Shown here in pieces: positions 1,705 through 62,975 of a stretch of 64,000 nucleotides of DNA (position 1 is the first letter of the stretch; each line of letters starts with the position of its first letter). Origin of the DNA: Kalaharituber pfeilii (taxonomy: Eukaryota; Ascomycota; Pezizomycetes; Pezizales; Pezizaceae); assembly GCA_015179045.1 (NCBI GenBank), contig WHUZ01000044.1, positions 434,001 through 498,000 of the forward strand. The letters are read 5' to 3'. The notes beneath the pieces are model-generated. The model had not been told where the DNA came from, did not search any database, and worked only from the letters and a program-made list of their open reading frames with translations. The position numbers and the translations under genes are program-made.

Positions 1705-1742
1705 CGTGACCAAAAAAAAAAAAAAAAAAAAAAAAAAGAAAG
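1705..1742 (+). mobile_element. Extremely short tail insertion (7 nt plus poly-A)
   Basis: The insertion reads CGTGACC followed by a long A run. It is flanked by the perfect 13-bp repeat GTCCCGGCTGGTT (1692-1704 and 1743-1755). CGTGACC matches the last bases of the type-2 tail, so this is the same kind of target-primed insertion cut back almost to the poly(A). Confidence 0.8.
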
Positions 1743-2123
1743 GTCCCGGCTGGTTACCGCGCGCACAAAAGCAGACCTGATCTGCGCCAAGCCCTGCAGT
1801 CCTATTGTTGATAAAAAACTTTACTTCCTACCCACTTATTGGATCATCCATCAAGAGGGCACCCAACAAAACAACAGTCACGTGAGCAGTCACGTGGAGC
1901 TCCCACAAACAATCGTCCGGATATCAACACTTCTGTGCACAAGGACCATCAGGCTTCCCTAACGTTCTGTTCTTTCACAAAAGCCTGTCACTGCACTTTC
2001 CGCATCTCGCTATCTTCCTCAAGTCAACCAGTCCTACCAAACTTTTCCTCCTTCCTACCCATCATCTTTTCTCACCCACCATCTTTTCTCACCCATCATC
2101 TTTTCTCACCCACGTCCAGAATC

Positions 2124-3116
2124 ATGCTTCAAATCTGGAACCCGCTCCAAGTGGCCCGCAGTCTGAACCGAGACTGCAGCAGGTATTGGCTTTGGAGCCG
2201 CATCTACCCTCCTGGCCCCCCTCCAGAAGTCACCGAAGAAGCATTCTTCATCGACATTGCACGTAGGCAAGCCTTCAATTCGGTCCTCCAGCTCGTTCCC
2301 AAGATCCACAGGCACGTGTGGGAAATGGGCTGGATCCCAGCCGAGTTGGACTATATGTTTAAGCCCGGAGGCCAGTTTTTTGAAAAGTTCGAGAGGTTCT
2401 GTATTAAGGCGGTGAGTGAGCTGGGATTCCTTTGATGCTTGTTTCTATGTTCCAATTTGTGGTCTTTGCGGTTTTTTTTTTTTTTATATCAATACTCGCA
2501 TGCCGCCCTATGGGCTATGGCGAGCCAATTTGCGGTAACATTACATGTCTTGTGAGGCAACGACAATGGAATGAGCATGACTGACGCTATCATTCTCCAG
2601 GCCGGTGACCACATTGCATGGCTCTATGCACCGCTCGATCCTGCCCAACAGAGTCCCTGCCCCCCTGGCACCCTTCTACTGAAAGAATTCTTCAACACCC
2701 CGCAGCCCGAAGACAACTGCCTCGACCTTCAGCCCTTTCAACCCTATCTCCACCTAGACGAAGGCGAGTCCCAGATGCCTTACATCACCAGCCTCGACGA
2801 GTACTACGAGGCGGTAACCAAATCCCTCGACACCTCTTGGACAGTCTTCTTGCAGAACGTGCTCAGCGTGCTCGTGGGGGACTGTGAGGACTTTCCGATG
2901 AACGAAGACGAAGAGTGGAACAGCGTGTCGGAGCTCGGGTCGGAGGTTGAGTCCGATACAGAATCGGAGGATGATGCGTCGGAGGAAGGAGTCGACGAGG
3001 CTCAGCAGGAGGATGCTGGTGAAAAGAAAGGGGAGGAACAAAATGAGCTACAATGCCAGGTGTATATTGCCGAGGGTGATGGTGAAGGAGAGGCGGATAT
3101 GGATCTGAGTGACTGA
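2124..3116 (+). CDS. Two-exon orphan gene, acidic C-terminus (267 aa)
   Basis: Exon 1 is 2124-2411 and exon 2 is 2601-3116. The donor GTGAGT at 2412 and the acceptor CTCCAG ending at 2600, with CTGAC about 20 nt upstream, join ATTAAGGCG to GCCGGTGAC in phase 0. I chose the ATG in the context AATCATGC, because the longer upstream frame is low-complexity. The N-terminal half is aromatic-rich (NPLQVARSLNRD, RIYPPGPPPEV, MGWIPAELDYMFKPGGQFFE). The C-terminal ~60 residues are a strongly acidic Glu/Asp run, suggesting disorder. I do not recognise a family. The intron carries a type-1 LINE tail, so the intron is longer than its ancestral state. A protein-coding gene is well supported by the clean splice join; its function is unknown. 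Confidence 0.75.
2473..2528 (-). mobile_element. Type-1 LINE tail insertion within an intron
   Basis: A poly(T) run then ATATCAATACTCGCATGCCG and GGGCTATGGCGAG is the inverse of the type-1 tail. TTTGCGGT is repeated on both sides (2465-2472 and 2529-2536). It sits in the only intron of the 267-aa gene and leaves its donor, branch region and acceptor intact. Confidence 0.85.
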
Positions 3117-3369
3117 GGAAGCATGGTATCCTCGTCCCCAGAGGCATGGGTGGTTAATTATATGATTTCAAATCTCCTTTGTTTCTTCTTTTTCTTTTTT
3201 CCATTTCTTGGCTTTCTTCTCCCCTCTATTTCGGTTCCGTTCCCTTGGCACCCTTTACTTTGATTGTTCATTGCCTACCCTGTCTCATCTGTGTTAGAAG
3301 CCTTGTTGCTAGATTTTCTTATGCGATGGTTTTTGCTATTAATGGATAATACCAGACCGCTTTCCGATA

Positions 3370-3618
3370 ATTTTGTTCCCATTTTCTTTGCATTCTTTGT
3401 AACCTCGCATTGTGATGACGGGTCAACAGCATCCACTGTTTCGCACGGGTACCGGTATCTAGAGTTACTGTTATTGTTAGTCTCACTTCCGCTTCACACA
3501 GGAGTTTCCGGGGATTTCTACTTTTATATCTAGCTTTCCTTGTATTTCATATGTAACTAAACATCGCCATAGCCCTTAGGGCGGCACGCGATTAATGATA
3601 TTAAAAAAAAAAAAAAAA
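3370..3618 (+). mobile_element. LINE 3' end with type-1 tail
   Basis: The segment with CCGCTTCACACAGGAG, TTTCATATGTAACTAA and then the type-1 hairpin plus poly(A) matches the 3'UTR of the ORF1 element ending at 29855. The left boundary is approximate and no TSD was found. It lies just downstream of the 267-aa gene. Confidence 0.65.
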
Positions 3619-5340
3619 GAGCTGGCGGAACGAAGCCTCAAGGGCGGCCTCAATGATCAAATGTCAAGGAAAGGGTCTTCAATTGTCTTGTCTGTGCGTG
3701 TCCATATCTGTCCATGTCTGCTTATGTCTGTATATGTCCGTATGATCCCTCCACGTAGTCCTCTCTACATTTTATAGGCCGCCTTCCCCTCCAACTGAGC
3801 CTGTACAAACATATCTCGCTTCTTAAACATAATTTTCTTCCTCATCTCACGCATGTGTATCGTGTGGCCCTACCGATGAGTACCGCTCCGGCCCGCGTTT
3901 GGCCTTATTCTTTCCATCGGTACCGTGGTTACCACCACACCATGTGCTTGGCTATATCTAGACTCTTAGTCTCGAGACCCTTGCTCTTGACTCAACCTAC
4001 TCACAGCAGACTTCCCAATCCGCAAGACGTGCTTACCCAGACCCCGGTTGACCGACGTTAGGTGAGTACTGGACCATGTTATTCAGGTTAGCCTTCCCGG
4101 AAGGACATCCTGCATCCTCAGACTAGTCAGAAGACTACATCCCCGTTGCTCAAGCCTCCTCCACTTAAAATCCCCGCCTCTACCTACTAGTTTAGCTGAC
4201 TCCATGTACTATGCAAGTAGCTTACCGTATCCCACCCCCTGATAACCCACCTACCTATTCCACTCCACCCAGATTGCTTACCATCCCCTCTTCCAGACTT
4301 GAACAGTTCCCCCAAAACAGGATATAACCTTGTTTCCTGCCTCGTACTCCTTCCCATGTTTACCTATCTCCCAACCGTCACTATCTCTTTCCACATTAGC
4401 ATACTTCATCGCGTTTCTTCCTCACGCGAGGAGGGACTAGTGGTTTCTGTTTCTATGCGGCTTACCCTACCCTGCACGCTCTTTGGGAGGGATTGAATAA
4501 TCCTAGGCCTTCTTCAGTATCGGTGATAATCTACCAAAGGTATGCATGACAGAGACAGACTACCTGCTGCCGAAAAAGGGGGGAGGGCAAGTATGCCATT
4601 CCCCCCGTGGGATATAGAGATAAGGAGAGCACTTGTTTTATATCTACAACAATAAGACAGAGCGTTAGCATCCGATACTCCCTATATCAATAGCTACCTA
4701 GTCGGAAAAGAACTCTGAGATTTCCTGTTATACCCCTCCCCTCCCCCTCCACCCCCCGACGACTGCATTCCGGCCCTGCTGAGCTGCTGGCTAATATTCC
4801 ATCAAGATACTTAAGCAGCTAGCTGAGTCAGCGTTGAAAACGATGCAGCGGGTTTCCAATAGCATCGTGAAAGTAAGACTCCAGCAGCCTTTGTCGCCTG
4901 CAACAGAGCAACTGGTGACCTGCCGGCTTTCCTGGTCAGATAATTGGAGACTGCGTACCGCTGTTTTTTCGGGATAAAAGCTGTGCGAGAACAGGGTAAA
5001 TGTTGTCCCGGGTGAATCAATTTTTCAACTTTCATCAGTGATCGGGATGGGAGTTTATGGTGCGTGAAGGGGAATGGGTTTACGAGACTGGGGCGGGTCC
5101 CTTCGATGCCCAGACTTTGAGGGGAAAACTATGTTGCACAAAAGAAGGAGAGGCATCACGTGATTCTGCTGCCGATATATATCCACCCTCGGTGCTGTCC
5201 AACCGCTCTGTGCCCCTCCCTCCTCAACGCACACAAAAAGTAGCACACAACGCTCTCTAATACCAACGAGAAAGAAACAGTCAACAATACACACACAACA
5301 ACAAAGCACCGCTCTCAAAGGTGTGATCAATCGCTCGAAT
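3619..5340. other. No recognisable gene
   Basis: About 1.7 kb between two orphan genes. It contains pyrimidine-rich stretches (4700-4760 is C-rich) and only short overlapping frames without codon-level support. The last 200 bp probably hold the promoter and 5' leader of the 718-aa gene. Confidence 0.5.
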
Positions 5341-5403
5341 GCACAAATCTTTTGTGCACATCATGTATACTGACTAGTACTCCATCCTTCCCAGAAGCTC
5401 GAC

Positions 5404-9545: not shown

Positions 9546-9547
9546 TA

Positions 9548-13391: not shown

Positions 13392-13438
13392 TTTTTTTTT
13401 TGTCATTACACGCGTGCCGCCCTAAGGGCTATGGGGAG
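13392..13438 (-). mobile_element. Type-1 tail insertion (47 nt)
   Basis: Poly(T), then the inverse type-1 hairpin, flanked by the perfect 12-bp repeat AAGATCGGTTAT (13380-13391 and 13439-13450). Confidence 0.92.
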
Positions 13439-13581: not shown

Positions 13582-13637
13582 TTTTTTTTTTTTTTTTATT
13601 TCATTAATCGCATGCCGCCCTATGGGCTATGGCGATG
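13582..13637 (-). mobile_element. Type-1 tail insertion (56 nt)
   Basis: Poly(T) plus the inverse type-1 hairpin, flanked by the perfect 13-bp repeat ATTCAGGCCCATT (13569-13581 and 13638-13650). Between this and the previous insertion, at about 13484-13520, lies a third, decayed tail (CATGTCATTACACGTATACC). Confidence 0.92.
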
Positions 13638-16728: not shown

Positions 16729-16792
16729 GTCCTGCCATGGCGAAGAGCCGCATGCGGGGTCATGTGACAAAAAAAAAAAAAAAAAAAAAAAT
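16729..16792 (+). mobile_element. Type-2 tail insertion (64 nt)
   Basis: Begins GTCCTGCCATGGCGAAGAGC, ends in poly(A) and is flanked by TTCTTGAAT (16720-16728 and 16793-16801). Confidence 0.9.
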
Positions 16793-17080
16793 TTCTTGAA
16801 TATTACAGTTCAACCGGTTTCCGGTTCCGGTATATATAGCGAGATCTGGTATAGCAAGGGTAGACTGTATCTATTGTATTGGTCGCACACAACATAATAC
16901 CAATGCGAGTACTGATATGAAAAAAAAAAACCAAAATAAAAAACATAATACCAAGAGGTAAAAAGGGTATTACATAAGGAATGTATATATTTTATTCCAT
17001 TTTTAATTAGCCATTTTCCTTTTTTGGCTAGATCACTATATACTATACTATATTTGGTAATTAGTAAAGGTTGACAATTA

Positions 17081-17594
17081 TTTTATTTTTTTTTTTTTTT
17101 ATTCACGGAACCCCGCATACAGGCTACCAGCCTATGGCAGGGACCCATATACCCGGGCCAGGTTTGAGACAACTAACTACGGAATCTACATACACCCTTG
17201 AGCACCCAGTGCCCTCCGTCCCCCGGTCCCCGGCTACCCCAGATCGAGGCAGGCAAACCAGTACTCGACCGGGTCACCTTCCACGCCTTCTTGCTTCCAC
17301 CCTTTCTCCTCTAGGTCCTCCCAGGACTGCCAGGTGACATGTGCCCCGTTTTTGTTCTTCCTCTGGGGCCGCACCAGTTCTGTGCATCTGAACACCACAT
17401 GCTCAGCACTCCATGCCTCACCACATGTGCATTGTACCTCCTCGCCACTGACCATCCTCCTCCACATAGCTCCGCCTTTTCCAGTTTGCAGCCATGTGTA
17501 ATTTGTGAGTGCTCTCCTGCCCCACTTTACGAATTTGCCCTTCCCAAACCCTGCACGCTCCCTCTCCTCTTACAAGGCGGCATGCGAGTAATGA

Positions 17595-17636
<42 letters not shown>

Positions 17637-18245
17637 CTCCTCTTTTCTTTTTCGAACTAACTCTTGACGCAGCCCACCCTCAGTGGCCTGCCCATCATAC
17701 CTCATGCCCTTGGCCCCCTCTTTAGCCAACTCATCCGCCTTCCCATTGCCTTCTATCCCCACGTGGGCCTTGACCCATGCCAGCTTCACTGCATCTGCCT
17801 TCCTTAGCCTCCGCCGCCTCTCTGCAATCAGCTCTATCACCCGCGCTAGGTCTGCGGTTCTTGCCTTGCCAGTTTTTCCTGCTTTCTGGACTGCACTGAT
17901 AGCTGCCTGAGAGTCTGCGAGTAGTAGTACTTTTGCACTGCCATCAACTGCTTCAAGGGCACCCCTCATTCCTGAGACCTCACCGTCCCACACAGTTGCC
18001 TTTGTGCCTACCCACCGGGACCCCTCTGACTCACCTGCTACCACCTGCCTCCAGCACCATCCGCCACCAACACCGCCTTCCTCACTGCGGCTGCCATCTG
18101 TAAAAATAGCCACCGAGTCACCCTTAGCCTCATTGATGGCCTTTTCCCATTTGGCTGGGGCGTCTTCCTTGCACAGCTTGAGGTCAATGACCTCAATGCC
18201 TGTCTGTGGTAGGTGTACACAATTATGACCCCTCTCCATATACAG
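17081..18245 (-). mobile_element. LINE ORF2 fragment: RNase H plus knuckle
   Basis: The minus strand has the type-2b tail and poly(A) at its 3' end. Upstream it encodes the Cys/His knuckle (VQCTCGEAWSAEHVVFRC), and before that an RNase H domain with all four acidic positions visible: TDGS, the E of WDGEVSGMRGAL, LLADSQAAIS, and the D of WVKAHVGIEGNGKADELAKE. RNase H and knuckle are separated by a short tail insertion at 17572-17631 that shifts the frame, so this copy is dead. The 5' end near 18245 is a truncation. Confidence 0.88.
17572..17631 (+). mobile_element. Truncated type-1 tail insertion inside ORF2
   Basis: The insertion is ACAAGGCGGCATGCGAGTAA, a few more bases, then about 43 A. 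It is flanked by the perfect 13-bp repeat TCCCTCTCCTCTT (17559-17571 and 17632-17644). The same insertion at the same position is present in the LINE copy at 38458-39247. Confidence 0.92.
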
Positions 18246-20947: not shown

Positions 20948-21022
20948 CCCTGCCATAGGCTGATAACCTCTATGCGGGGACATGTGATCGAAAACAAAAA
21001 ACAAAAAACAAGAAAAAAAGGC
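20948..21022 (+). mobile_element. Type-2b tail insertion (75 nt)
   Basis: Starts CCCTGCCATAGGCTGATAAC, ends in an A-rich tail with interspersed C and G, and is flanked by AAACAGGTTTT / AAACAAGTTTT (20937-20947 and 21023-21033). The mismatch and the impure A tail suggest an older insertion. Confidence 0.82.
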
Positions 21023-30819: not shown

Positions 30820-32650
30820 GTTTTTTTTTTTTTTTTTTTTTTTTTTTGTAGGTCACATAGCCCTGCATACATGCCTCCAGCCTATGGCGGGCGCCCATAT
30901 AGCCAGGTCAGGCTGCGTAACTACCTAATTGATCTATTCTCCCTACACAATTTGGGTACCCAGCGTACTCCCTGGCCCTTCTAGCCCACCTCGAGGCCCG
31001 CTCGCCATTCCTCCGCCGGGCTGCCCTCTGCTACCTCCCTTCTCCTTCCTCCGGAGCCGCTCCAGCTCAGCGCACCTGAACACCACCTGCTCAGCACACC
31101 ACACCTCTCTGTTTCTGCGTTGCCACTGATCTTCCTCCTCCACATGCCCCCCCCCCCCCCCCCAACCTTTTCCAGTCCACAGCCAAGTGTAGTTGTGACG
31201 GTTCTCCTACTCCACTTCACAAACTTTCCTTTCCCACAACTGACTTGTTCCCTCCCCTCCTGCATTTTCCGAACTAACTCCTGATCGTATGAAGCACACC
31301 CTTGGTGGCCTGTCCGTCATACCTCAGGAAACCAGCCCCTCTTTTGCCTTTTCATCAGCTTTTTCGTTGCCTCCAATCCCGATATGTGTGTTGGCCCATG
31401 AAAGCTTCACAGCCCCGGAATTTTCCAGCCTCCACCTCCTTTCTGCCACCAGCACCACCACACGTACCAGATCTGGAGTCCTCGTTCTCTCGGTCCTTCC
31501 TGCATTGTTGGAAGAGCTGATGGCTGCCAAGGAGTCTGCGAGGAGCAGAACCTTCACAGTTACGTGAACAGCTTCGAGGGCTCCCGCCTGCCTGCTGCCT
31601 CCCAATCCCACACGATAGTCTTGGTGCCTGCCCACTGGCACCCTTCCAACTTGGCTGCTACCACCCTTAGCTCCATTGATAGCTCTCTCCCACTTAGCTG
31701 GGATACCCCCTTCTCTAGTCTGAGATCGATGATCTCGACCTCTGGCAGTGGAGTTATACTGCGTCCCCATGATACCCTCTCCTCCTGCTCCACCTCAATC
31801 GTGGTTGCAATGCTGCTCACCACTGATTCAAAGCCTTCAGTCTTCTCTGCCCCCATCCTATGTTGAAGTGGCACCAGTCTCACCCTTCTGTCCCTCTTTG
31901 TCTGGATCTGTGACTTTAAGGCGTGTGAATATTTGTTGCCACAAGTCGCCTACCGATATGAGATCTCTTACTGACCTCAGTGCATATTGTACCTTCCCTG
32001 GCCCTGGCCCATGGCCGTTATTACATTGTTCACCCCTGCTATTGCCTCCACCTTCACTCTAGCCGCCCTCTGACAGCTCTGATATATTCTCAAAGCGCCT
32101 GATATTGTAGCCTCTCTAATCCTCCATCATTGTCTCTAGCTACTCCTGCCAATCTCAGACCCACATGGCCACTACCCTCACTTTTCGCCATGTAAGGGGG
32201 CACTGTTGCCCCACTGAGAGTTCCCCAGTTCGGATCAAGTCCCCAAAAGCTTTCTGGCCTTTTCAATCCAGCTTTCAGGTTCTCAACAGGCGTTCGAAAT
32301 CAAGAGTGCGGCCGCAAATCACCCCCAGCTCCCTGTCACGGGGTTGTAGGTTGTATGTGGCGTTATGTGAACCAAAAAGAAAAAGAAAAAAAAACACCCA
32401 CAGCCATTTGGTTCTCTGACCATGCGCCCGCCACTTGGCCTTCTTACTAATGACCGGGGGCTCCTCCTTCGAGGCCTCGAGTGACAGTTCATAGGCCTGA
32501 GCCACCTCCCTAAGTACTCCTTCAATCCTATCTCTAATTCGCCTTATATCTTTACTCCCCTTCCGGATCCCATGTTCACCACTGTGCAGTTGAGGTCACC
32601 GTCGAATGACAGTGGTTAACACCTCTCACAGGCACTCCCTTGCTGCCTTG
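30820..32650 (-). mobile_element. Decayed LINE ORF2: RT end, RNase H and knuckle relics
   Basis: Inverse type-2 tail behind a T run at 30820-30847. The minus strand then shows relics in order: knuckle region, RNase H (LLLADSLAAISSS, WANTHIGIGGNEKADEKAKE, and GTKTIVWDWEA at 31600), and upstream RELGVICGRTLDFERLL at about 32300, which resembles the LGV..D..L.F motif following the RT palm. There are many stops and frameshifts and a C homopolymer at 31146-31163. It is older than most other copies here. Confidence 0.7.
32330..32394 (+). mobile_element. Type-2 tail insertion (65 nt)
   Basis: Begins TCCCTGTCACGG, has GTATGTGGCGTTATGTGA and an A-rich end, and is flanked by CACCCCCAGC / CACCCACAGC (32320-32329 and 32395-32404). 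It interrupts the RT relic of the surrounding LINE, so it is younger than that LINE. Confidence 0.75.
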
Positions 32651-33227: not shown

Positions 33228-33291
33228 GGTTTTTTTTTTTTTTTTTTTTTTTGTCACGTGACCCCGCGTGCAACTGTTCGCCATGGCAGGG
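33228..33291 (-). mobile_element. Type-2 tail insertion (64 nt)
   Basis: Poly(T) then the inverse type-2 tail ending CCATGGCAGGG, flanked by CAATTTGATG / CAATTAGATG (33218-33227 and 33292-33301). Confidence 0.88.
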
Positions 33292-36349: not shown

Positions 36350-36376
<27 letters not shown>

Positions 36377-36418
36377 GTCACGTGACCCCGCGTGCAGCTG
36401 TTCGCCATGGCAGGGCGG
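36350..36418 (-). mobile_element. Type-2 tail insertion (69 nt)
   Basis: Poly(T) plus the inverse type-2 tail, flanked by the perfect 11-bp repeat CGATTCGGCCT (36339-36349 and 36419-36429), inside the inverted LTR. Confidence 0.93.
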
Positions 36419-37491: not shown

Positions 37492-37556
37492 GCCCTGCCA
37501 TGGCGAACAGCTACAAGCGGGGTCACGTGAAATAGAAAAAACAAAAAAAAAAAAAA
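37492..37556 (+). mobile_element. Type-2 tail insertion (65 nt)
   Basis: GCCCTGCCATGGCGAACAGC onward to poly(A), flanked by the perfect 11-bp repeat GTTACACCCTT (37481-37491 and 37557-37567), inside the inverted LTR. Confidence 0.95.
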
Positions 37557-38457: not shown

Positions 38458-38691
38458 TTGCATATATCGGAGGACAGCATGGTGTACTGTACTGAGATGA
38501 TTGCAGAGAGGCGGCAAAGGTTAAGGGAGGCGGATGCAGTGAAGCTGGCATGGGTCAAGGCCCACGTAGGGATAGAAGGCAATGAGAAGGCAGATGAGTT
38601 GGCCAAAGAGGGGGCCAAGTGCATGAGGTATGATGGGTAGGCCACTGAGGGTGGGCTGCGTCAAGAGTTAGTTCGAAAAAGAAAAGAGGAG

Positions 38692-38739
<48 letters not shown>

Positions 38740-39247
38740 CATTACTCGCATGCCGCCTTGTAAGAGGAGAGGGAGCGTGCAGGGTTTGGGAAGGGCAAAT
38801 TCGTGAAGTGGGGCAGGAGAGCACTCACAAATTACACATGGCTGCGGACTGGAAAAGGCGGAGCTATGTGGAGGAGGATGGTCAGTGGCGAGGAGGTACA
38901 ATGTACATGTGGTGAGGCATGGAGTGCTGAGCATGTGGTGTTCAGATGCACCGAACTGGAGCGACCCCAGAGGAAGGACAAAGATGGGGCGCATGTCACC
39001 TGGCAGTCCTGGGAGGACCTAGAGGAGAAAGGGTGAAAGCAAGGTGTGGAGGGCGACCCGGTCGAGTACTGGTTTGCCTGCCTCGATCTGGGGTAGCCGG
39101 GGACGGAGAGCACTGAGTGCTCAAGATGTGCATGTAGATTCCGTAGTTAGGTGTTGCAAACCTGGCCCGGGTATATGGGTCCCTGCCATAGGCTGATAGC
39201 CTGTATGCGGGGTTACGTGAATAAAAAAAAAAAAAAAAAAAAAAATA
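38458..39247 (+). mobile_element. 5'-truncated LINE ORF2, carrying a shared tail insertion
   Basis: Starts within RNase H (IAERRQRLREADAVKLAWVK, HVGIEGNEKADELAKEGAK), continues through the knuckle (VQCTCGEAWSAEHVVFRC) and ends in the type-2b tail with poly(A) at about 39222-39246. It is near-identical to 17081-18245 over the shared length and has the same internal tail insertion. The left boundary lies between 38450 and 38495; no TSD was found. Confidence 0.85.
38697..38761 (-). mobile_element. Truncated type-1 tail inside ORF2 (same event as 17572-17631)
   Basis: Poly(T), then ATGTCATTACTCGCATGCCG and CCTTGT. Flanked by AAGAGGAGAGGGA (38684-38696 and 38762-38774), the same duplicated target in the same LINE position as in the 17-kb copy. 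Confidence 0.92.
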
Positions 39248-40960: not shown

Positions 40961-41022
40961 GCCATAGCCCGTTGGGCGGCACGCGAGTATTGATATAAAA
41001 AAAAAAAAAAAAAAAAAAAACC
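40961..41022 (+). mobile_element. Type-1 tail insertion (62 nt), plus older tail at 41075-41114
   Basis: GCCATAGCCCGTTGGGCGGC then poly(A), flanked by the perfect 13-bp repeat GACACTGACTCTC (40948-40960 and 41023-41035). A second, decayed type-1 tail (GCCATAGCCTATAGGGTAGC) ends in A15 at 41114. Confidence 0.93.
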
Positions 41023-42090: not shown

Positions 42091-42750
42091 GTTTAGATTA
42101 GTTATTAATATCATATAATCAAGACTAGCTGGCTCAAGCCAACCTTCTATTTGATAAGCTCGGCTTGAGCCGAGCTCACTCACGAGCTGGCTCGAGCTCA
42201 CCCTCTAGCTCGGCTCAAGCTAGCTCGTGCCGCTCACAAGGGCTTACTAGTTTCTCGTCTTCATCTTGTGAGGTCTGGTGTCGGTACCGGGGATTTCGGT
42301 GTCGATGTAGGGGTTGGACGTGTCAGTGTCGGTGTCAGGGTCAGGAGCTTCGTTGGTGTGGTAGTGGCGTCGGGTGTCGCCGGGGTCCCGGTCGGGGACG
42401 AGTTCGTGGACCTTCTGGTCCAGCCATCTCTTTATCTCGTAGGGTGTATTGTCTGATGGCTGCTTCCCCTTCCTTTTCCTGGTTGGGGGGGTTTGCTGGC
42501 TGGTGCTACCTGCCGGTTTAAAGTCCGTGCACGGGGCCCCCGTTATTTCAGACGGGACGTGGTGGAAGGACTAACAAACCTGGAGTCCGTCGAGACGTTT
42601 GTTTACGGGGAGACGGAGAGGGTAGAAGCCCGGACATTGAGGTTCGATGATGAACCAGTCAGAAGACCACAGCCGGACACGATATACCTGAGAGGGGCTC
42701 TTGGGCACAGAGACCCTCTGCCCCTACATGTACACCCGATACACCCATCC

Positions 42751-42807
42751 AATCGCCATAGCCCGTAGGGCGGCCTGCGATTAATGATATAAAAAAAAAA
42801 AAAAAAA
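42751..42807 (+). mobile_element. Type-1 tail insertion (57 nt)
   Basis: AATCGCCATAGCCCGTAGGG to poly(A), flanked by GATACACCCATCC (42738-42750) and GATACCCATCC (42808-42818), a near-perfect duplication. Confidence 0.88.
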
Positions 42808-42827
42808 GATACCCATCCGATCTTCGT

Positions 42828-42865
42828 TTTTTTTTTTTTTTTTTTATTTCATTAATCGTATGCCG
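42828..42865 (-). mobile_element. Shortest hairpin-deficient tail insertion (38 nt)
   Basis: About 18 T then ATTTCATTAATCGTATGCCG, flanked by the perfect 14-bp repeat CATCCGATCTTCGT (42814-42827 and 42866-42879). Only the 3' arm of the hairpin was copied. Its TSD overlaps the TSD of the neighbouring insertion. Confidence 0.93.
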
Positions 42866-42927: not shown

Positions 42928-43724
42928 ATGAGCGTATACACTGATGGGAGCAGGATGGAGGACAAGACAGGCGCCGGAGTGCACCAAGCCAGAAAAGACA
43001 CATCCATATACCTAGGGGGAAGATGCACGGTCAATGACGCTGAATTGATAGCGGTGGGAGAGGCCATGCGCAGAGAGGGGGAGCTGCTAATCATAACGGA
43101 CTCCAGGACCATAGTGACAAGGATGAAGGGGATAGCCAGGGGGGACCTAACCCCAGGAGGAGCAGAGGAGTGGGTAAGGAGAAGGTGGGATGAAAGGATG
43201 TCAAGGGGGGATCGAGACCTGGCGATTCTGTGGGTAAAAGCACACAGAGATATAGCCGGTAACACGGAGGCGGACACGGCGGCCAAAATAGCCACGGCGC
43301 TACAATACCAGGACGAGACGGTGACAGAAGCGGGCATCCGACAAGAGGCGAAGGCTAGTAGAGGGGTGGAGAGAAAGAGACTACAGCTGACGTACAGGCC
43401 ACTCGAATACCTGGGGACCAGAAGGATGGTGGCCACACTCACAGGCATCATGGAGGACAAAGGATTGAGACAATGGAGACACCAGATAGGCAAGGAGGAT
43501 TCACCGGAGTGCAGGTGGTGTGGAAAGGCCCTCGAGAATTACAGACATATATCAAGAGAGTGCGAGGTGTGGAAGAAGAGACTACCAGGAGGAGAGACAG
43601 GGCTGAAGATGCCAACAGGAGTAGAGAAAGGGAAGGGGAAGGAAGAGGGAGAGAAGAAGGGGACGAAAGAGGGGAGAAGAAGGGGATGACACTAGCCGAG
43701 GTGCTGGACTGGGCAGCGAGCTAG
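42928..43724 (+). pseudogene. LINE ORF2 C-terminal region: RNase H, knuckle
   Basis: The best preserved RNase H in the window. The catalytic acidic positions are visible in VYTDGSRMEDKTGAG (D), VNDAELIAVGEAM (E), LLIITDSRTIV (D) and WVKAHRDIAGNTEADTAAK (D). A linker leads to the knuckle ECRWCGKALENYRHISRECE (C-x2-C-x7-H-x4-C). The first frame runs to 43689. The alternative frame to 43724 ends TLAEVLDWAAS, which agrees better with other ORF2 ends, so there is probably one frameshift near 43580-43600. The RNase H would digest the RNA template during target-primed reverse transcription; RT and endonuclease are absent here. Confidence 0.85.
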
Positions 43725-44529
43725 CTGATTTCTATCTGACTATTATTTTCCTTTACACTCTTTCCTTATCTATCATCTGCGATTTACATATTCTGTACCT
43801 AACACCTCGCCGTAGCCTGATAGGCGGCATGCGAGTAATGAAATAAAAAAAATAAAAAAAGTCCGTGCACGTGATGGGACTGAGCCCCAAAGTCTGTTAT
43901 GGTGGTGGTGGCGCTGGTTGTATGTCTATGCAGGTGATGGGGCTGAACCCCAATATCTGTTGTGGTGGCGTCGGCGTCGGCTGAGTGTCCACGCACGTGA
44001 TGGGGCTGAACCCCAGAGTCTGTTGTGGTGGTGGTAGTGGTGTGGGTGTCTGCATGGGCAGCGGGGTCATTGCATAATATGCGTCGACCCCCCCATGCCC
44101 AAACAGTTCGAGTCTGCGTGCCTCCAAGGCCTTTCTAAGTCTTTCCTCTCTGTCCGCGTCCCCCGGGGGGTGCAGTGTCTTTGTCTTTGTCGACGGGGGA
44201 GTCGGCGGGGCGGGGCGGGGGCGAGGGCGGGGCATTGTCTTATTGGCTGTTTCGTCTCTCTCCGCCGGAGGCTATTGGAGCTTGGCGCCGCGTTAGTGTG
44301 GGTGTTGTGCTGGCAACGGTGGTGGCGAGCTGCAAATCTCCTCGAAGTTTCACCCCGGGAGGAAACTTGTGGGTTATGTTTTTGGAGGATAAAAATTAGA
44401 TCAAAATACTCAGCACGCTGAGGGCTTTTGATCTATGTAGATTTCACTGGGGGGGACGTCGTGGTTGTGGAGTCGCTTCCAAACGCTCATCCTGTGGTGG
44501 TTGTTGTCGGTGTCTCTCCAATATTGATG

Positions 44530-46812: not shown

Positions 46813-47290
46813 TGTTACGGAGTCTACGATGATGTAGCTAAAATGAGGGTGTAACTTAGGACTTTTTTTTTTTTTTTTTTAATTCATTAATCGCATGCCG
46901 CCTCGAAGGCTATGGCGATATGTAACTTAGGACAACGCTTGAAGCTTGACCATCTCTCGAAGGCAGAAGGCCCTCCTTTTATAGCCAGCTCCCCACGCAT
47001 GCCCACTGTATGTTCTATTGCTTATGCTATCTATGCTTAACAATCGATATGAATGCTTAACAATCAATAACAATGTCTGAGGCTGTGCACAACAAGCCTA
47101 CGCGTACTCTTGCCACTCAGTGGCGCAACTCACTCAACCATGTGCTCCGCTTGTGATACGCTTCCGTGACCCGACCTGTCAATTGTATTGCCCTGCTGTA
47201 GCTATCGGTTGATCAGGCCGAATGGTCACTAGCAGCCTTACGGGTCAACTCAGGTGGATATCCCCAGCCTTTCTGGGTAGGCCCGTGACA
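46813..47290 (+). mobile_element. Solo LTR, family 2, directly upstream of copy B
   Basis: TGTTACGGAGTCTACGATGA ... GCCCGTGACA with the perfect 5-bp TSD GTAAC (46808-46812 and 47291-47295). Only CC lies between the right TSD and the ATG of copy B, so the LTR separates that gene from its former promoter and leader. It contains a type-1 tail at 46863. Confidence 0.95.
46863..46920 (-). mobile_element. Type-1 tail insertion (58 nt) in an LTR
   Basis: Poly(T) plus the inverse type-1 hairpin, flanked by the perfect 13-bp repeat TGTAACTTAGGAC (46850-46862 and 46921-46933). Confidence 0.95.
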
Positions 47291-47297
47291 GTAACCC

Positions 47298-48511
47298 ATG
47301 GATCTGGTGACTGAAGCCCATGTCGACAGCCTTTATCACTACATGAATGATGATATTTATCATTTGACTACCCACTTAAGCGAAGGGGAAGTGACAAATC
47401 CGTTCATTTTCAACTGGTGAGTAATATGTAGTCATTGAATAAAAATATTCTAACAAGATATTTACAGCCAGCGTAGCATCGATTTATCAGAAATCCAAAA
47501 CGACCCTTTCACTCCACGATCTTTTTACAGTGAATCCATACCCGAAGAACAACGCTTTTTCCTACACTTTGGATATTTTCCCCAAAGTGGCAGGGCTGGT
47601 ATGAACACTTGCTGCCTCAATGAGCATGAAAATTGGAATGCAGGTACAGCTGTACAAGATTATCTACCCACTGCCGATATGGCTACGGTTGGTAATGCTA
47701 GTGTGCTTCAGGATCTATCTAAGCCCACTATCAAACTCGCCCAATACCGGAATCATGCCTCAAACGTTTGCATGTGTGAGCTTTGGAGCATGGATCAAAA
47801 CGCGGAAGGTTACGATACAAGTGTCGCACCCAATTTGGCACAGGCTGCACCAAATGTTATTCCTGGTGCTAGTTCTGAACCTGGACCCAGCTACAGTAAT
47901 CCAGTGCTAACCTTTCCTCCTGCGAGTTACCCAGAGAGCAATATACTTGCTGAAGGTGGAATAAAAGTTTCGAATGAAGCTAGGGGAAATCCTGCAGACA
48001 GCAAAGAGGTTAACAGACCCAGGAAGTGAATAGAGGCCTGCGATCAGGAAATGGATGTAGTTAACAGCCAGCAGGTTTCTGTTCATCCAAAGAGAGATGT
48101 AAGTGAAACATATCCATATTTTTTTTTTTTTTTTATATCACATGACCCCGCATGCAGCTGTTCGCCAAGGCAGGGCAAACATATCCATATAAAGAAGCCT
48201 GTCCAAACTAACTTGCTACAAAAAATCTTTTTACACTCGTTCACTGACTATTTTTAATTAAGCAACTGCAGAAGACGAACAATTCCAAGAGATCTCAGTG
48301 TGACTCCATCTGCGCTGCTGAAGATGATCAAATAACATGGATTTCTTATACACCTTTGGTGGAATATACTTTTGTACCAGTTCCAGTTCCAGCGGAATAT
48401 CGTGTTGAGTTTGCAGCAGTGGAAACGGTCAGCACAGCTGCCTATCTATGCTCTAAAATGCAAAGAGTATGTCTATTAAAACCGCCATTAGTGTCAATCA
48501 CAAGAAGCTGA
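47298..48511 (+). pseudogene. Unrecognised multicopy family gene, copy B (decayed)
   Basis: Three exons equivalent to copy A: 47298-47416, 47468-48098 and 48273-48511. The start MDLVTEAHVDSLYHYMNDD and exon 2 patches (PRSFYSESI, MNTCCLNEHENWNAGTAV, LSKPTIKLAQYRNHASN) are conserved. A TGA at 48027-48029 stops the frame 23 codons before the exon 2 donor, where A and C are open. In exon 3 the signature WISYTPLVEYTFVPVPVPAE is present, but the frame arithmetic indicates one base missing near 48300 relative to copies A and C. An LTR sits 2 bp before the ATG region and a LINE tail lies in intron 2. It is probably non-functional. A truncated 185-residue product up to 48029 cannot be excluded. Confidence 0.75.
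48120..48176 (-). mobile_element. Type-2 tail insertion (57 nt) in intron 2 of copy B
   Basis: Poly(T) plus the inverse type-2 tail, flanked by the perfect 14-bp repeat AAACATATCCATAT (48106-48119 and 48177-48190). The intron donor begins at 48099, so the insertion is about 20 nt inside the intron. A decayed type-2b tail also occurs at about 48595-48645. Confidence 0.95.
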
Positions 48512-50730: not shown

Positions 50731-50767
<37 letters not shown>

Positions 50768-52905: not shown

Positions 52906-52976
52906 TCCTGCCATAAGCTCGTAGCCTGTATGTGGGTTACCAGTCCAACAAAAAAAAAAAAATTAAAAATAAACCT
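52906..52976 (+). mobile_element. Type-2b tail insertion (71 nt)
   Basis: TCCTGCCATAAGCTCGTAGC to an A-rich end, flanked by AGGCCAAAT (52897-52905 and 52977-52985). It lies just downstream of copy C in the intergenic space. Confidence 0.85.
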
Positions 52977-55490: not shown

Positions 55491-55497
55491 ACTAGTA

Positions 55498-55556
55498 TGC
55501 CCTGCCATGGCGAACAGCTGCGAGCGGGGTCACGTAATAAAAAAAAAAAAAAAAAA
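55498..55556 (+). mobile_element. Type-2 tail insertion (59 nt)
   Basis: TGCCCTGCCATGGCGAACAG to poly(A), flanked by GGCACTAGTA (55488-55497 and 55557-55566). Confidence 0.95.
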
Positions 55557-57550: not shown

Positions 57551-57845
57551 TTTTTTTTTTTTTTTTTTTTTATATCAATAATCGCGTACCGCCCTAAGGG
57601 CTATGGCGACCAGATGAACGAATCAATGAAACCACAGCCTCCGGCACGGTAAACAAAATCGACCCAACGCTCTACCAGTTATTCCTCTATGTGTCCCTAT
57701 ATAATCCGAACGATGAGACCCGGAAGTTTCTCCATCTGCATATTTCAGTTCCGCATCTACGTGGAAGTGCTGGCGTTCCCTATTACTACTGCTTCAGGGA
57801 TTCTTTTTTTTTTTTTTTATATCATTCCTCGCATGCCGCCCTTGG
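57551..57845 (-). mobile_element. Two type-1 tails (57551-57609 and 57805-57842)
   Basis: Each is poly(T) followed by the inverse type-1 hairpin (TATATCAATAATCGCGTACC and TATATCATTCCTCGCATGCC). The second lacks the 5' arm. Flanking repeats are short or unclear (CGACC; GGATTC / GGATCC). Confidence 0.7.
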
Positions 57846-58226
57846 ATCCCAAGGAAGACTATACCTTCTTATGACGGGTGCGAGCATCCTGCCTGCTAAA
57901 CCTTTTGTCGTCATCGCAGATCTCGCATCTTACTTTCTCGCGAGTTGTATTGTGAATTGTATCTTCATGACGAGTGAGATCATAAGGCCGTGAAAACACA
58001 GGGATTCAACCTTCACCGTCGTCATTGGTTCTTGCCCCGGTACCAACAAAGCACTTCTACCATCAACCGTTGTCATCAATGGACGATCATCTGATGCCAG
58101 AACTGCTGTCCGCAGAGCTCTTGCCTCTTGCTACAACAAGTCTAACAACCATGATTGCTCCCGCAATAGCTCTGGACCCAGGTCTGCAAAGGGCAAATCA
58201 GTTCCTGATACTTCTTCCACCAGGGA

Positions 58227-58835
58227 TTGAGCCACGGAGGATTCTTTACAGGTAGTTATGCATCATTTACAGATTCCGAACCCATTTCACAGTTTTCAGG
58301 TACTGATCTGCCAATAAACGAACATAGTCGGACTGTATCAGAAGGCCATGAAACCTTTTCAGACAACCCTTTGAGCGGATCGCATCATCAACAGGAATTT
58401 GCAAGAGCACTACCAAATATGTACATTTGCAGCCAACTCCCAATTCAAGACAGCCAGTTTCCTGGACTTGATACCTTGGTTACCGACGTTTCAATTTCCA
58501 ACACGATTTTTGACAACATACATTCAGCAGTACCACCACCCTGCATTACCTATCCACAAGTGATCAATAACCTCATTAGGTATTCACTTCATGAGAGCCA
58601 GGAGAGCCCTGAGATATTCAGCAGCACCATGGACCACAAAGACGACCTTACACATTTTCACAGCCAGAACGCTCAGTCTGTCATCAATGCTGCAGCTGCA
58701 GCTTCTCAACAACCTCAAGTCATGTGCTGGATGTCTCCTAATATTCCAAATGACTTTGTGCCAGCTCCATCATGTCCGGAATATGAAATCAGATTCGAAG
58801 AGCCTACAATTTGTGGAGGCTCCTCCCCTAATTGA
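58227..58835 (+). CDS. Distant family member, copy D (partial model)
   Basis: An open frame of about 200 codons (SHGGFFTGSYASFTDSEPIS ... ) with Gln/Ser-rich sequence and INAAAAASQQPQVMCWMSPN. It ends with a relative of the family signature, MSPNIPNDFVPAPSCPEYEI. In the next frame VEAPPLIDMQRVC resembles the VETV...MQRVC ends of B and C, so a one-base shift may separate D from its original end. There is no intron between the exon 2- and exon 3-like parts. The 5' exon is unresolved: 58010-58226 contains TFTVVIGSCPGTNK in another frame, and a splice at ACCAG 58220 or CAGGTAGTT 58247 is possible. Function unknown. Confidence 0.4.
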   Translation: MSHGGFFTGSYASFTDSEPISQFSGTDLPINEHSRTVSEGHETFSDNPLSGSHHQQEFARALPNMYICSQLPIQDSQFPGLDTLVTDVSISNTIFDNIHSAVPPPCITYPQVINNLIRYSLHESQESPEIFSSTMDHKDDLTHFHSQNAQSVINAAAAASQQPQVMCWMSPNIPNDFVPAPSCPEYEIRFEEPTICGGSSPN

Positions 58836-58839
58836 CATG

Positions 58840-60850
58840 CAGAGGGTATGCTCAACACGACGCCAATCGGTAATATTATGGGTTTTTCGTGCATGCATGC
58901 AGAACCAGGCTGACTGTGACCCTTAAAGCAGACTCATGTCAATACCTATGGATCCTATGTTCCAACCTCTCTGTCCGGGGGCAAGCGGGAGAAAGAAACA
59001 TTTATCGGAGGTGTACGTAGCTCCTTGCGAAAGATGAATGCATGGAATTGTTACATTTTACATTGCTTTTGCTGCTGTTGTATCTTTCGGGTATACTGTA
59101 TTAGCCATGCATCCTAGGGTTTCCCCCTACTCTGCAAGTAACAGCGCAAAGTGCTTCGGTCAATTGCTTTTTGAATTGCTTCAGCTTGGTTTTTGTCAGG
59201 TTTACTTATATTTTTTCATGCCATATTTATTTTATTTTATTTTATTTTGTTTTGCTTTGTTTTATTTGATTATTTTTATTTTATTTATTTATTTATTTAT
59301 TGTTTTTTGTGCTTTCGTGCTACGCAAAGCGTATTCAACGTAGACTTCATTTACAACTTTCGTTATCACTCATACGCAAGAAAATCAGCTACAGCTACGA
59401 TACATCTGAGTGCCAAGACCTTTTTTCTCTACCAATTGGATTCAATCTCCTTGCATAGAACATACCACTTTCTCTCAATAACATTTGGAACAAGAAGGAA
59501 AAGTTTATGCGTGTCCTTTACGTAATAGTTATTGCAAGTACTGCCGCTAGTAACGTTCCGGAATTAGATGAAGTTATGTATTTGGTACCTTTGTAATATT
59601 CCCGAATGGAAATCGATTTCTACAAAATTCAAAATTTAATATACAGTAATGATATCCTGGCCCTGTTGTGGGCTGTGTACTCATCAGGTAACAGAACCAA
59701 GCAAGAAGAATTTTTCCAGTTTTTCGTTCTTGCCTCGCCGCCAGCGTTCGCAGGCAAGCACCATACCCATGTTGCGTAGGTACCAATTACATGTCTGAAT
59801 CTTCTTTCTCTTTCGCCTTTTTGCTTTTTTCGCGTTTTGTTGATCTACACCCCGTAAGTTGTCGCACCAATTAAACCCGGTCGTGCTAGGAGCGCTGGCT
59901 GCGAACAATGTGTGTTCGGGTTAGCTGTGCAGGTGAAGCTCCACTTCTGGCATGCGCATGGGCCCACAACCCTGGCTGTGCGGTGTTCTAATTTGGCCGG
60001 TGCCAGGGAGCCCTGCCACGCCTGGAGCGGCAACCACCGCAATGGCTGAATCGTTTGCAAAAACAGGCCTGATCGTCGATGAGTGCCGGAACTGTGCTGC
60101 GTTTTAGGCTAGCTGCAGCGCCCAGGCAGCACGCACACACCCACACTCATTATTTTCATATTATTATTCCGAGCGCTTAAAAGAAGGAGCCTCCCAACCT
60201 GATTGTGCACGCAGCTCCCAACTTGATTTTTCAAAAATTCTGGAACTATTAGCAGCACGTCTACTTCATACGACATGACTCCTGAAAGTTCAACTCGACA
60301 CAATGACCTTTGCAGAACGCGCCCTTGGAACCGACTCCTCAACTACAGCTACCACGTGCGACACCTACACAGACCGAAAGCTCTCAGCACGCTGACCTAA
60401 TTTCTTATTCCAAAATGCCACACCCCTTATGCTTCCCCTTTGGGTGAACTCGTGAGGATTATTCAGCACTCACCGCTGTTGTCAAAACATTCAACTTCAC
60501 GCCAAGAGCTAATAGGAGGACTCAAATACCAGTAACTACCATTCGACATACCGAAGGAAGGACGAAGCCAAGCCCTCTCCCGGAAGTTCCTCATCCCGCC
60601 CCGCCGGAGCGCTGTACCCCCTCTTGAGAAGGATCGGAATCTACATTGGGGACTTGTCAGGAGTAAGTTGGGGGAGGTAGGAATGAGTTGCAACTTGGTT
60701 GTGGAATGGAAATTAAGGTCCGAAGGAGGCACTCTATCGATGCGATGGTGAGATCCAAATTGGGGTTAGATTCACAAGAGATGGAGTTTTGATAGTCTGG
60801 GCGGTTAGTGGAAGAGGAAGCTTCGTTGAGCAACTTTGGAGTTTTCAGCC
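58840..60850. other. No supported gene; AT-rich low complexity at 59215-59320
   Basis: A TTTTATTTTA-type tract at 59215-59320 and short frames on both strands. Nothing similar to other parts of the window was noticed. Confidence 0.4.
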
Positions 60851-60852
60851 AC

Positions 60853-60912
60853 CCTGCCATAGCGAGTAGCAGTAAGCGGGTTTACTTGATTAGAAAAAAA
60901 AAAAAAAAAAAA
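60853..60912 (+). mobile_element. Type-2 tail insertion, diverged
   Basis: ACCCTGCCATAGCGAGTAGC, then AAGCGGGTTTACTTGATTAG and poly(A). The TSD is unclear. Confidence 0.75.
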
Positions 60913-61059
60913 ACCTATACCCCTGGCACTCATGGACTCAATCACAGTCAGAGAATCCTCCACAGCCTGCAACGAGTCCCGGCAAGGTCCATTACAGTAC
61001 TACATTCGATAAAATCCAGCCCTGAGCTCTCGACAACACAACAGCTGAAATACAACCTC

Positions 61060-61850
61060 CGAAAGCAGCCTGAGCATCTCTCAAATCAGAAATAACTCCG
61101 GGAAATGTCAGTAAGCTTCAGCAAAGCAGAGCCAAAGAGCGTGCTAAAGAGAATGGAAACATCAACATTTGCAGGATTTGGCCCTACCTGCCCACCCCCT
61201 CAGCCACCATACCATCACCACTACGGACCAACCCCCCCTCCCCCAACCCATCAGCGTCAACTCCCCGAGAAAGCGGCAATTAGATTGGGAAAAAGTAACG
61301 AAGATTATGCCTTTTGGTCAAGTGCGATGATGGTGCATGGAGGAACCTTGAGGCGAAGCTAGAGAATATCCTTTATTGACTGGAAACCGCAATCAAAGAG
61401 ATGGAAAGGACTCCTGGGTTTCAATAATGGAGGGAATGGGGGCATTCATTGAAGAGGGGTGAAAGACTAGTTTGGTCGCGGTAGGACTAAATCAGTCGTG
61501 GTCGTGGTATACCTGAAGGAAGAAGTCGAGTTAGCACTGCCGAGGTGAGATTGAGAGGGAGAAAGTGGAAGGAGGGAAGGGGGAAAATCGTGGACACTGA
61601 CGTGAACTTGTTTTCTTGTTTTGGTTTTTGTGCCATAGGTGTGTCGTGGTGCTTCTTACTCTTTTTTTTTTTTTTTTTTTTTTTTTTTCCATATCAGTTA
61701 TTCTGGTTTACTTACTTCGGTTCTCGGGTCTATCTTCGGAACGTGGGTCTGTTCCTTGGCTTGTTTTTGTACCTAGTCCTTTGACGCAACTTTGCTATGG
61801 CTCGTCATAGTCAAGTAGGGCTATATACTAGTACTGAATGGAAAAAAAAA
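61060..61850 (+). mobile_element. Decayed ORF1-type LINE with degenerate type-1 tail
   Basis: Pro-rich N-terminal part (CPPPQPPYHHHYGPTPPPPT). Frameshifted C-terminal relics AMMVHGGTLRR, VVVVYLKEEVEL and VRLRGRKWKEGRG correspond to the VVHGIALRK, SVVVYLE and VRLGGRWLR parts of ORF1. A degenerate tail (CGTCATAGTCAAGTAGGGCT ... GTACTGAATGG) and A run end at about 61850. A T run at 61664-61688 marks a further minus insertion. Confidence 0.6.
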
Positions 61851-61859
61851 AATAAGAGG

Positions 61860-62895
61860 GAAAAAAAAATAGAGGACAGCTATGACAGGCAGGGCATGGA
61901 CACAAAGCAGGGCAGAAAACTCACCGTTGTAATGGGAGGGTCTTCAGCAATTCCATTCCAATGCTCAACTACTACTATTGTTACTGTTCCTACTTAAACC
62001 CAATTTATTCGCTCACTGGGGGTTACTTTCCATCTCACGTTCTAAATCCCTACCCACCGTCTTTTCACTACTCACCTGCCTAAGTTGCAGTTGCCACCCA
62101 TCGTCTTGCTACTGCTCATAATTTTATGGCACAGCTGACGTCTTGCGAAAAGGCGTTTTGGGATTATTCCGGATCGTATCATATCAGTATTGTGGAGGCT
62201 CATTCTATAAAGCCAGCCAATGGCGCAGATTCCGCAGGCTACATACTTATGACTCGTAACCAATCAGCAGGGATTCAATTTGCGATCGCCTTTGCGTAAG
62301 AATATGCAGGTTTTCGCCTCGGCCCAATACAGCGCTGCCAAAACGGGCTCAAGGCTAGCTCGCCATGGAGGATGGATGGTGTGCCTTGTATCGTTGCACA
62401 GCCGTGTCGGGGGAAAAAGCAAAGAGCAGCAATAGACGTGGCCAGATGCAGTATCTCGAGCCAGCCCGCTCCAGTTCCCCCCTACCGTGCCCGATGTGGT
62501 AACAATGTGCCCAATTTCCTCTCTTGGCACTCCTTGTCATGCATTCCTTGCAACACTATTTATTATGGATATATTGCAACTATGGAAATTGCATAGCATT
62601 ATACTAATTTGATATCGCTGAATTAGAATTTTTGCCATCATTATAGAGAAAAAATCAAAATCCCAATATTTACAACCAAAGTCATCATTATTCACCTAAA
62701 TTGAGCCCTCGCTGTATATAACATAGCTCAATATTTACAGGAAAAATAATATAGGAAACTAGTGATACTCATCCATCTAGTGCTGGTCTTTTTATTTGAA
62801 GTCAAAAGTTTCACAACCAGATCATATGGGACACAGTTCACCTTCAAATTTATAGAAGTGGTTCACATTCTGGAGCTAATCTTCATCCTTATCAA
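61860..62895. other. No recognisable feature
   Basis: Short frames on both strands without support; AT-rich toward 62600-62890. Confidence 0.4.
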
Positions 62896-62897
62896 TA

Positions 62898-62948
62898 TTA
62901 AAATTTTGGCCCTGCCATGGCGAACAGCTGCATGCGGGGTCATGTGAT

Positions 62949-62975
<27 letters not shown>
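62898..62975 (+). mobile_element. Type-2 tail insertion (78 nt)
   Basis: Twelve extra bases (TTAAAATTTTGG) precede CCCTGCCATGGCGAACAGCT, then poly(A). Flanked by the perfect 11-bp repeat CCTTATCAATA (62887-62897 and 62976-62986). Confidence 0.93.

Follow-up and report, generated by a model that had tools for sequence, protein, structure and literature searches.

Short LINE-derived insertions that begin at a 3' terminal hairpin in the genome of Kalaharituber pfeilii

The tails of stringent-type long interspersed nuclear elements (LINEs), such as UnaL2, ZfL2-1 and ZfL2-2 of the L2 clade, carry a 3' stem-loop, and the ZfL2 protein is described as binding this stem-loop through the region between its endonuclease (EN) and reverse transcriptase (RT), with retrotransposition also shown (PMC4176376). 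In the MINE chimeras of Magnaporthe grisea (WEIRD-MGL), the MGL RT departs from its template at certain favoured sites, which the authors connect with predicted hairpins, and switches to another RNA at many MGL sites, leaving 230 to 5461 nt of MGL (PMC2104539). Why LINE copies are so often 5'-truncated has long been asked, and target-primed reverse transcription (TPRT) is hard to observe in its early steps. Here we describe short insertions in a 64,000-nt stretch of the genome of the desert truffle Kalaharituber pfeilii (the window; positions are those of this whole stretch) and at further loci of the same genome. Each consists of a LINE 3' hairpin tail, of a type that we call T1 or T2, followed by poly(A). 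An original prediction made from the window held that the 5' ends of these units pile up at the hairpin base, and this was borne out: 31 of 92 T1 tails and 43 of 63 T2 tails that bear a target-site duplication (TSD) have 5' ends clustered tightly at the outermost pair of the hairpin or 1 to 2 nt beyond it. The units are best described as hairpin-bounded, LINE-made insertion stubs, and nothing suggests that they are autonomous.

The T1 and T2 tails, described here from sequence, resemble the stringent-type tails in their 3' stem-loop; for ZfL2, binding and retrotransposition were shown by experiment. Like 5'-truncated LINE copies, the units have TSDs and poly(A), are anchored at the 3' end and are TPRT products; however, the starts of the T1 and T2 insertions are not merely spread, as a narrow peak at one structural boundary stands out among them. 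In contrast to the MINE chimeras, as these are described, no second RNA is seen in the K. pfeilii units and the site is the terminal hairpin. Short interspersed nuclear elements (SINEs) are likewise short, with poly(A) and TSDs, and are presumably LINE-mobilised via a shared 3' end, but the K. pfeilii units differ in having no 5' head, no Pol III promoter that we could see and many hairpin variants. We recognised no description of insertions bounded by a LINE 3' hairpin among titles and abstract openings in the open-access literature, a coverage that leaves subscription journals mostly outside, and in the main text of the genome paper the sole mention of Kalaharituber concerns cell-wall enzymes (PMC7550596). 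A genome with an estimated many hundreds of hairpin-ended insertions would amount to a natural archive of an abortive TPRT step or of a processed template, and such insertions indicate that 40-nt LINE stubs, readily overlooked in repeat annotation, can form a common insertion class.

A T1 unit reads (C/A)TCGCCATAGCC-loop-GGCGGCAYGCGA(G/T)TAATGA, followed by a few bases and poly(A), and a T2 unit reads GCCCTGCCATGGCGAACAGCTGCATGCGGGGTCACGTGA, a few bases and poly(A), with variants. All 19 hairpin-tail positions that had been listed for the window carry T1, T2, a divergent T2 variant (at 20948, 32330 and 52906) or a 3' remnant, together with poly(A). Most had been said to have perfect TSDs of 8 to 14 bp. 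Direct repeats flank 17 of the 19 according to our script, and the other two were recovered at 17572 (TCCCTCTCCTCTT, by scan) and 32330 (CACCCCCAGC/CACCCACAGC, by eye, one mismatch), but the repeats span 8 to 17 nt and four have one mismatch. At 2473, the repeat found by the script (CCAATTTG) is probably not the true TSD, and TTTGCGGT is better by eye. The near-constant 5' start that had been proposed also has exceptions, as the units at 17572 and 42828 begin within the hairpin, the one at 1705 keeps 7 nt of the T2 tail and the one at 62898 is preceded by 11 additional nt. The units, and the RNase H frames of two LINE copies that host some of them, are as follows.

1705..1742, + strand: 3' remnant of a T2 tail (CGTGACC) and poly(A); TSD GTCCCGGCTGGTT
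2473..2524, - strand: T1 tail-only; TSD probably TTTGCGGT by eye, script CCAATTTG at 2452-2459
13393..13438, - strand: T1 tail-only; TSD AAGATCGGTTATT
13582..13637, - strand: T1 tail-only, starting at the hairpin base; TSD ATTCAGGCCCATT
16729..16792, + strand: T2 tail-only; TSD TTCTTGAAT
17418..18239, - strand: RNase H frame belonging to a second LINE fragment, into which the 17572 unit inserted
17572..17631, + strand: T1 partial tail starting at the hairpin loop, within the RNase H LINE fragment; TSD TCCCTCTCCTCTT
20948..21022, + strand: divergent T2 tail-only; TSD AAACAGGTTTT/AAACAAGTTTT
32330..32394, + strand: divergent T2 tail-only; TSD CACCCCCAGC/CACCCACAGC by eye
33228..33289, - strand: T2 tail-only; TSD GGCAATTTGATG/GGCAATTAGATG
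36350..36418, - strand: T2 tail-only; TSD CGATTCGGCCT
37492..37554, + strand: T2 tail-only; TSD AAGTTACACCCTT
40961..41018, + strand: T1 tail-only; TSD GACACTGACTCTC, 17 nt with one mismatch when extended
42751..42810, + strand: T1 tail-only, inside a T1 LINE copy; TSD ACCCATCC
42828..42865, - strand: T1 partial tail starting in the hairpin 3' arm, in the same LINE copy as the 42751 unit; TSD CATCCGATCTTCGT
42928..43689, + strand: RNase H frame of a 5'-truncated T1 LINE; T1 tail at ~43806-43845, TSD AAAGTCCGTGCACG, 5' junction near 42534
46863..46920, - strand: T1 tail-only; TSD TGTAACTTAGGAC
48120..48176, - strand: T2 tail-only; TSD AAACATATCCATAT
52906..52976, + strand: divergent T2 tail-only; TSD AGGCCAAAT
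55498..55556, + strand: T2 tail-only; TSD GGCACTAGTA
62898..62975, + strand: T2 tail extended by 11 nt on its 5' side; TSD CCTTATCAATA

The partial tails at 17572 (+) and 38753 (-) are a single insertion event in two repeat copies: the LINE fragment copies at 17077-17834 and 38494-39246 of the window are 92.7% identical over 764 aligned bases and hold the same T1 partial tail, so the insertion was duplicated or re-mobilised along with its host element.

The units extend far beyond the window. In the whole genome (78.0 Mb, 360 contigs), pattern searches of the two strands found the T1 3' end followed by A8 at 916 + 924 = 1,840 sites, the T2 hairpin core at 649 + 679 = 1,328 sites and the strict T2 3' end at 81 + 66 sites, and reversed-pattern controls for the T1 and T2 tails gave 0 matches each, genome-wide. 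CCAGGGR, the sequence before the core in the long T2 copies seen, precedes the T2 core at 166 + 174 = 340 sites with a pattern slightly laxer at its 3' end, so about three quarters of the T2 cores lack even the first upstream LINE bases; this fraction is an estimate, as mutated or divergent long copies would score as tail-only. From the samples and pattern counts together, we estimate that hairpin-bounded insertions number many hundreds in this genome.

We mapped 5' junctions in the window, in 68 loci from the searches and in 40 fetched stretches (20 T2-centred and 20 T1-centred). This set held 238 tails, or 234 after deduplication, and the 232 with enough 3' flank (143 T1 and 89 T2) were used; a TSD scored above threshold for 92 of the 143 T1 and 63 of the 89 T2 tails, and only these were placed. 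Distances were measured from GC[AG][TC]GCG in T1 and GC[AG][TA]GC in T2, with 21 marking the outermost stem pair for both. The T1 junctions comprise 13 inside the hairpin, 31 at its base (18 to 25) and 48 longer ones (39 to 1352, the one at 39 having a doubtful, T-rich TSD), and the T2 junctions comprise 3 inside, 43 at the base (17 to 27) and 17 longer ones (30 to 1461). Within the base class, T1 counts at distances 18 through 25 were 1, 2, 2, 8, 6, 10, 1 and 1, and T2 counts were 1, 2, 2, 8, 22, 2, 2 and 1 at distances 17 through 24, with 2 more at 26 and 1 at 27. Tails on which a locus is centred divide into 12 base, 5 inside, 19 long and 13 without TSD for T1 (n = 49) and into 28, 2, 11 and 7, respectively, for T2 (n = 48). 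When only exact TSDs of at least 10 nt were kept, 29 of 83 T1 junctions lay at 18 to 25 and none at 26 to 60, and 31 of 48 T2 junctions lay at 18 to 25. Both stem forms of T1 show the peak, the C-G form with n = 19 and the A-T form with n = 9. The junctions in this subset of the genome's copies do not form a smooth distribution.

Some features of the procedure could favour the view that 5' truncation is ordinary and smooth and that the peak arose from the way we searched or from LINE bodies deleted afterwards: the TSD finder favours near repeats, the samples are non-random and in contig order (T1 being weighted to contigs C1 and C2), and tails without a TSD stay unplaced. For a control, each tail was given the 3' flank of another tail, which yielded 40 false TSDs in 755 trials (5.3%); 19 of these were T1 calls between -12 and 11, with one T2 call at 22 and one T1 call at 26, and the hairpin-base peak was not reproduced. 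We also scanned the same tail-selected DNA for poly(A) runs (A9 or longer) that have an exact TSD (11 nt or longer) within 600 nt, ignoring the tails and leaving out L001, a locus inside the window. This anchor-free scan found 382 poly(A) runs, 132 of them with a TSD (77 T1, 42 T2 and 13 other). The T1 inserts had lengths of 18 to 32 nt (8), 36 to 47 nt (37) and 87 to 565 nt (32), with none at 48 to 86 nt, and the T2 inserts comprised one of 30 nt, 32 of 38 to 42 nt, 5 of 49 to 52 nt and single ones of 201, 417, 525 and 544 nt. The same peak in the anchor-free scan, with its empty 48- to 86-nt T1 interval, argues against smooth truncation, as do the TSDs that abut the units, which later deletion would not repeatedly produce, and the uninterrupted relatives of some sites. 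We consider this explanation very improbable.

By eye, 12 of the 13 other inserts are T1 or T2 tails or remnants that the classifier had missed (one of them, L114, with a false TSD inside a tail), and the remaining one (L091) is 40 nt long with CCCGC..GCGGG arms. Thus, 131 of the 132 poly(A)-plus-TSD insertions carry T1, T2 or a piece of one, by script and eye, and no such insertion of an unrelated mRNA was found in the scanned DNA, which had been chosen for these tails. The 9- to 27-nt remnants among the other inserts suggest that synthesis sometimes ends inside the hairpin.

Folded as single sequences, T1 forms a 5-bp outer and a 4-bp inner stem (-13.9 kcal/mol for the C-G form and -12.0 kcal/mol for the A-T form), and T2 has a G-U outermost pair at -21 (-14.3 kcal/mol). 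Counted over 107 distinct rows, the outermost T1 pair takes a standard form in 104, including 71 C-G and 31 A-T, and the inner pair -9/-5 does so in 105, including 83 C-G and 18 T-A; for T2, 66 of 70 rows have a standard outermost pair, with 57 G-T and 9 A-T. These counts refer to the stems of the single-sequence folds and not to RNAalifold stems. The 3' stem-loop thus appears to be kept by pairing rather than by sequence, with stem pairs that covary, the outermost included. Rfam gave no family at gathering score in the window and, for one T1 and one T2 site (L004 and L053), sub-threshold matches at chance level only.

Tail-only and long copies carry similar insertion signatures. TSD medians are 12 to 13 and poly(A) medians 20 to 25 in each class, and a pyrimidine precedes the TSD in 27 of 31 base and 43 of 48 long T1 copies and in 36 of 43 base and 12 of 17 long T2 copies. 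This likeness in TSD, poly(A) and target context suggests one kind of machinery, most clearly for T1. When the flanks of 89 tail-only insertions were joined, 21 had a match across the join; 6 of these matched their own locus only, one (L014) was misassigned and 14 matched elsewhere with varying strength. The joined flanks of L046 align without gaps to L084 (99.3%), L079 (98.6%) and L044 (93.6%), and to L053 at 87.9% with three gaps, and those of L093 match seven places at 85.8 to 92.9% with 1 to 6 gaps. The tail-only insertion at L046 is therefore precise, and uninterrupted relatives exist for some sites. With their TSDs, 3' poly(A), constant 3' end and these relatives, the units have the marks of TPRT products.

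A T1 LINE at L120 has a 1151-amino-acid frame with matches to RVT_1 (4.6e-26), RNase_H (3e-13) and Exo_endo_phos_2 (1.2e-9), and the T1 hairpin base lies ~43 nt past its stop codon. Its other frame, of at least 631 amino acids and open at the locus start, has a Cys/His motif by eye and no Pfam match. Judged by this one copy, T1 tails appear to end an APE-type LINE with endonuclease, RT and RNase H. The RT matches include fungi, animals and metagenome records among the 120 of 408 that were listed. The RNase H protein at 42928-43689 had ten protein matches, every one from K. pfeilii, and the genome holds 150 or more RNase H relatives. As expected, a phage search gave no matches. T2 tails end a second group of elements: the long T2 copies at L041 and L087 have RNase H-like frames upstream, by eye, and no RT was seen within 1.5 kb. 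Two other copies (L046 1818 and L084 2460) have a frame of 312 to 319 amino acids before the T2 end, unlike the RNase H frames; they are perhaps internally deleted or non-autonomous relatives. The units had been called autonomous-looking, a description that our data do not support: they are the 3' ends of LINEs, protein-coding in the one T1 copy examined, with the TSD and poly(A) lengths of LINE copies, and so the enzymes that they need are presumably those of LINEs.

Such units could also come from a small-RNA gene of their own, SINE-like and sharing the LINE tail, and two observations fit this. T2 cores mostly stand without LINE sequence in front (340 of the 1,328 preceded by CCAGGGR), and the T2 subtype TTA has G before the hairpin in most tail-only copies but A in 7 of 7 long TTA copies sampled. 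Among 20 TTA rows not classed as long by the script, the base before CCCTGCC is G in 10, A in 7, C in 2 and T in 1; by eye, with six long-like or divergent rows set aside and two misaligned rows re-read, it is G in 12 of 14. However, long TTA copies with G exist (3 of 22 sites), so the G may be templated, and we do not claim that it is an untemplated, cap-derived base. The hairpins themselves are also diverse. The core could be read in 30 T1 base copies, which have 23 different cores among them, and in 39 T2 base copies, which have 21; in 1 and 4 further base copies, respectively, it was unreadable. An identical core occurs in a long or no-TSD copy for 14 of the 30 and 20 of the 39. So many different hairpins in tail-only copies argue against one small-RNA gene, and the idea that a discrete small RNA is mobilised loses ground in its single-gene form. 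A LINE tail of ~40 nt leaves little space for an internal Pol III promoter, and the units have no tRNA-, 5S- or 7SL-like head and no Pol III promoter that we saw, although no dedicated promoter scan was made. A single small-RNA gene is an unlikely source, and we give the SINE-like origin little credence.

The position of the junction peak bears on how the units arise. The original prediction proposed that the RT stops at, or the RNA is cut at, the hairpin base, and both proposals still stand as competing models, except for the simple roadblock form of the RT stop. The peak lies on the 5' side of the hairpin, which is the far side for a travelling RT; since an RT moving 3' to 5' and blocked by the hairpin should halt on its 3' side, a plain roadblock does not explain the peak. 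Our preferred reading, to which we give about even chances, is that the units are LINE TPRT products that hold only the 3' recognition hairpin and poly(A), synthesis having been aborted after the hairpin was copied. By analogy with ZfL2, the T1 and T2 proteins may bind their 3' stem-loop, and the LINE protein would thus grip its RNA via this hairpin. Synthesis would be primed on the poly(A) and would then copy through the hairpin, turning it into an RNA:cDNA duplex and so removing the protein's anchor, at which point the RT would either escape into long synthesis or release. A released stub would then be attached to the target, giving a complete insertion with a TSD on either side, and an abortive-initiation step of TPRT would in this way have been recorded an estimated many hundreds of times in one genome.

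A serious rival is that hairpin RNA fragments are mobilised. LINE RNA may be trimmed to the hairpin, for example by a 5'-3' exonuclease stalled at a protein-bound hairpin or by an endonuclease acting at the single/double-strand border, so that a hairpin of ~40 nt with poly(A) is the complete template, whose RNA 5' end would lie at CTCGCC/ATCGCC or GCCCTGCC. The location of the stop fits trimming, since a nuclease working from the 5' end would come to rest on the 5' side and a run-off end would also fall there. So do the sharp 5' ends, above all that of T2 at 21 (22 of 43), and the diversity of tail-only hairpins, which general trimming of many LINE RNAs would give. On the other side, a 5'-3' nuclease should meet the next-upstream T2 hairpin first, yet that hairpin (AAGCC..GGCTT) has 2 junctions, each 1 nt upstream of it (L066 1528 and L085 1298), compared with 43 at the 3'-most hairpin, the first met by the RT, unless only the 3' hairpin is protein-bound; the two junctions hint at a second stop site. 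Remnants of 9 to 32 nt also count against trimming. Release of the RT is favoured by the stops inside the hairpin, by the 2 versus 43 junctions and by the T1 tails, in which no stop with a good TSD lies in the next 35 nt. We regard trimming as possible but short of probable. Somewhat more doubtful still is the view that LINE transcripts release a separate structured RNA of ~40 nt, made up of the hairpin, a short linker and poly(A), and that this RNA is itself the mobile entity, with about a thousand or more insertions; if this were true, such a mobile hairpin RNA would be among the smallest known retrotransposed templates.

Several points weigh against abortive synthesis by the RT, or against the precision of the evidence for it. 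A template RNA of ~40 nt ending at the hairpin base would give identical junctions, and the T1 overhangs of 1 to 2 nt are compatible with either model. Five T2 insertions with exact TSDs of at least 10 nt start at 26 to 60 nt. Since the false calls from swapped flanks fell mostly in the T1 inside-hairpin zone (19 of 40), some of the 13 T1 inside stops are false; the call at L014 proved false on inspection, and the single event at 17572/38753 was entered twice. The 51 of 143 T1 and 26 of 89 T2 tails without a TSD were left unplaced, and base and long T2 copies are not quite alike in target context. Finally, RNAalifold picked other stems for both tails, and in a 140-nt context at L120 the predicted fold does not favour the hairpin, with a probability of 0.04 for the outermost pair.

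During this analysis, we first read one site at which poly(A) runs into a T1 tail (L064) as template jumping. We dropped this reading: L064 and three of nine further poly(A)-to-T1-tail sites (L109, L110 and L115) are better explained by tails that inserted into earlier tails, with the 5' arm of the older hairpin as the TSD. At all four, the TSD begins at the base of the older hairpin, which may reflect the A-run that often lies ahead of the hairpin in the LINE; the search pattern selects such cases, so they do not establish a preference. Positions 1-1300 of the window have, near both ends of a stretch that also contains a T2 tail (~460-520, - strand), short direct repeats that are GC-rich and of the form GGCCTGGACCGCCCTGGTT. 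At L118 (C293:476500-476860), a T2 tail and its flank lie in a tandem duplication with a period of ~80 bases. Two T2 tail-only units (L068 1502 and L077 3002) have an unexplained piece of 10 to 12 nt between the TSD and the unit, which resembles a second T2 5' end.

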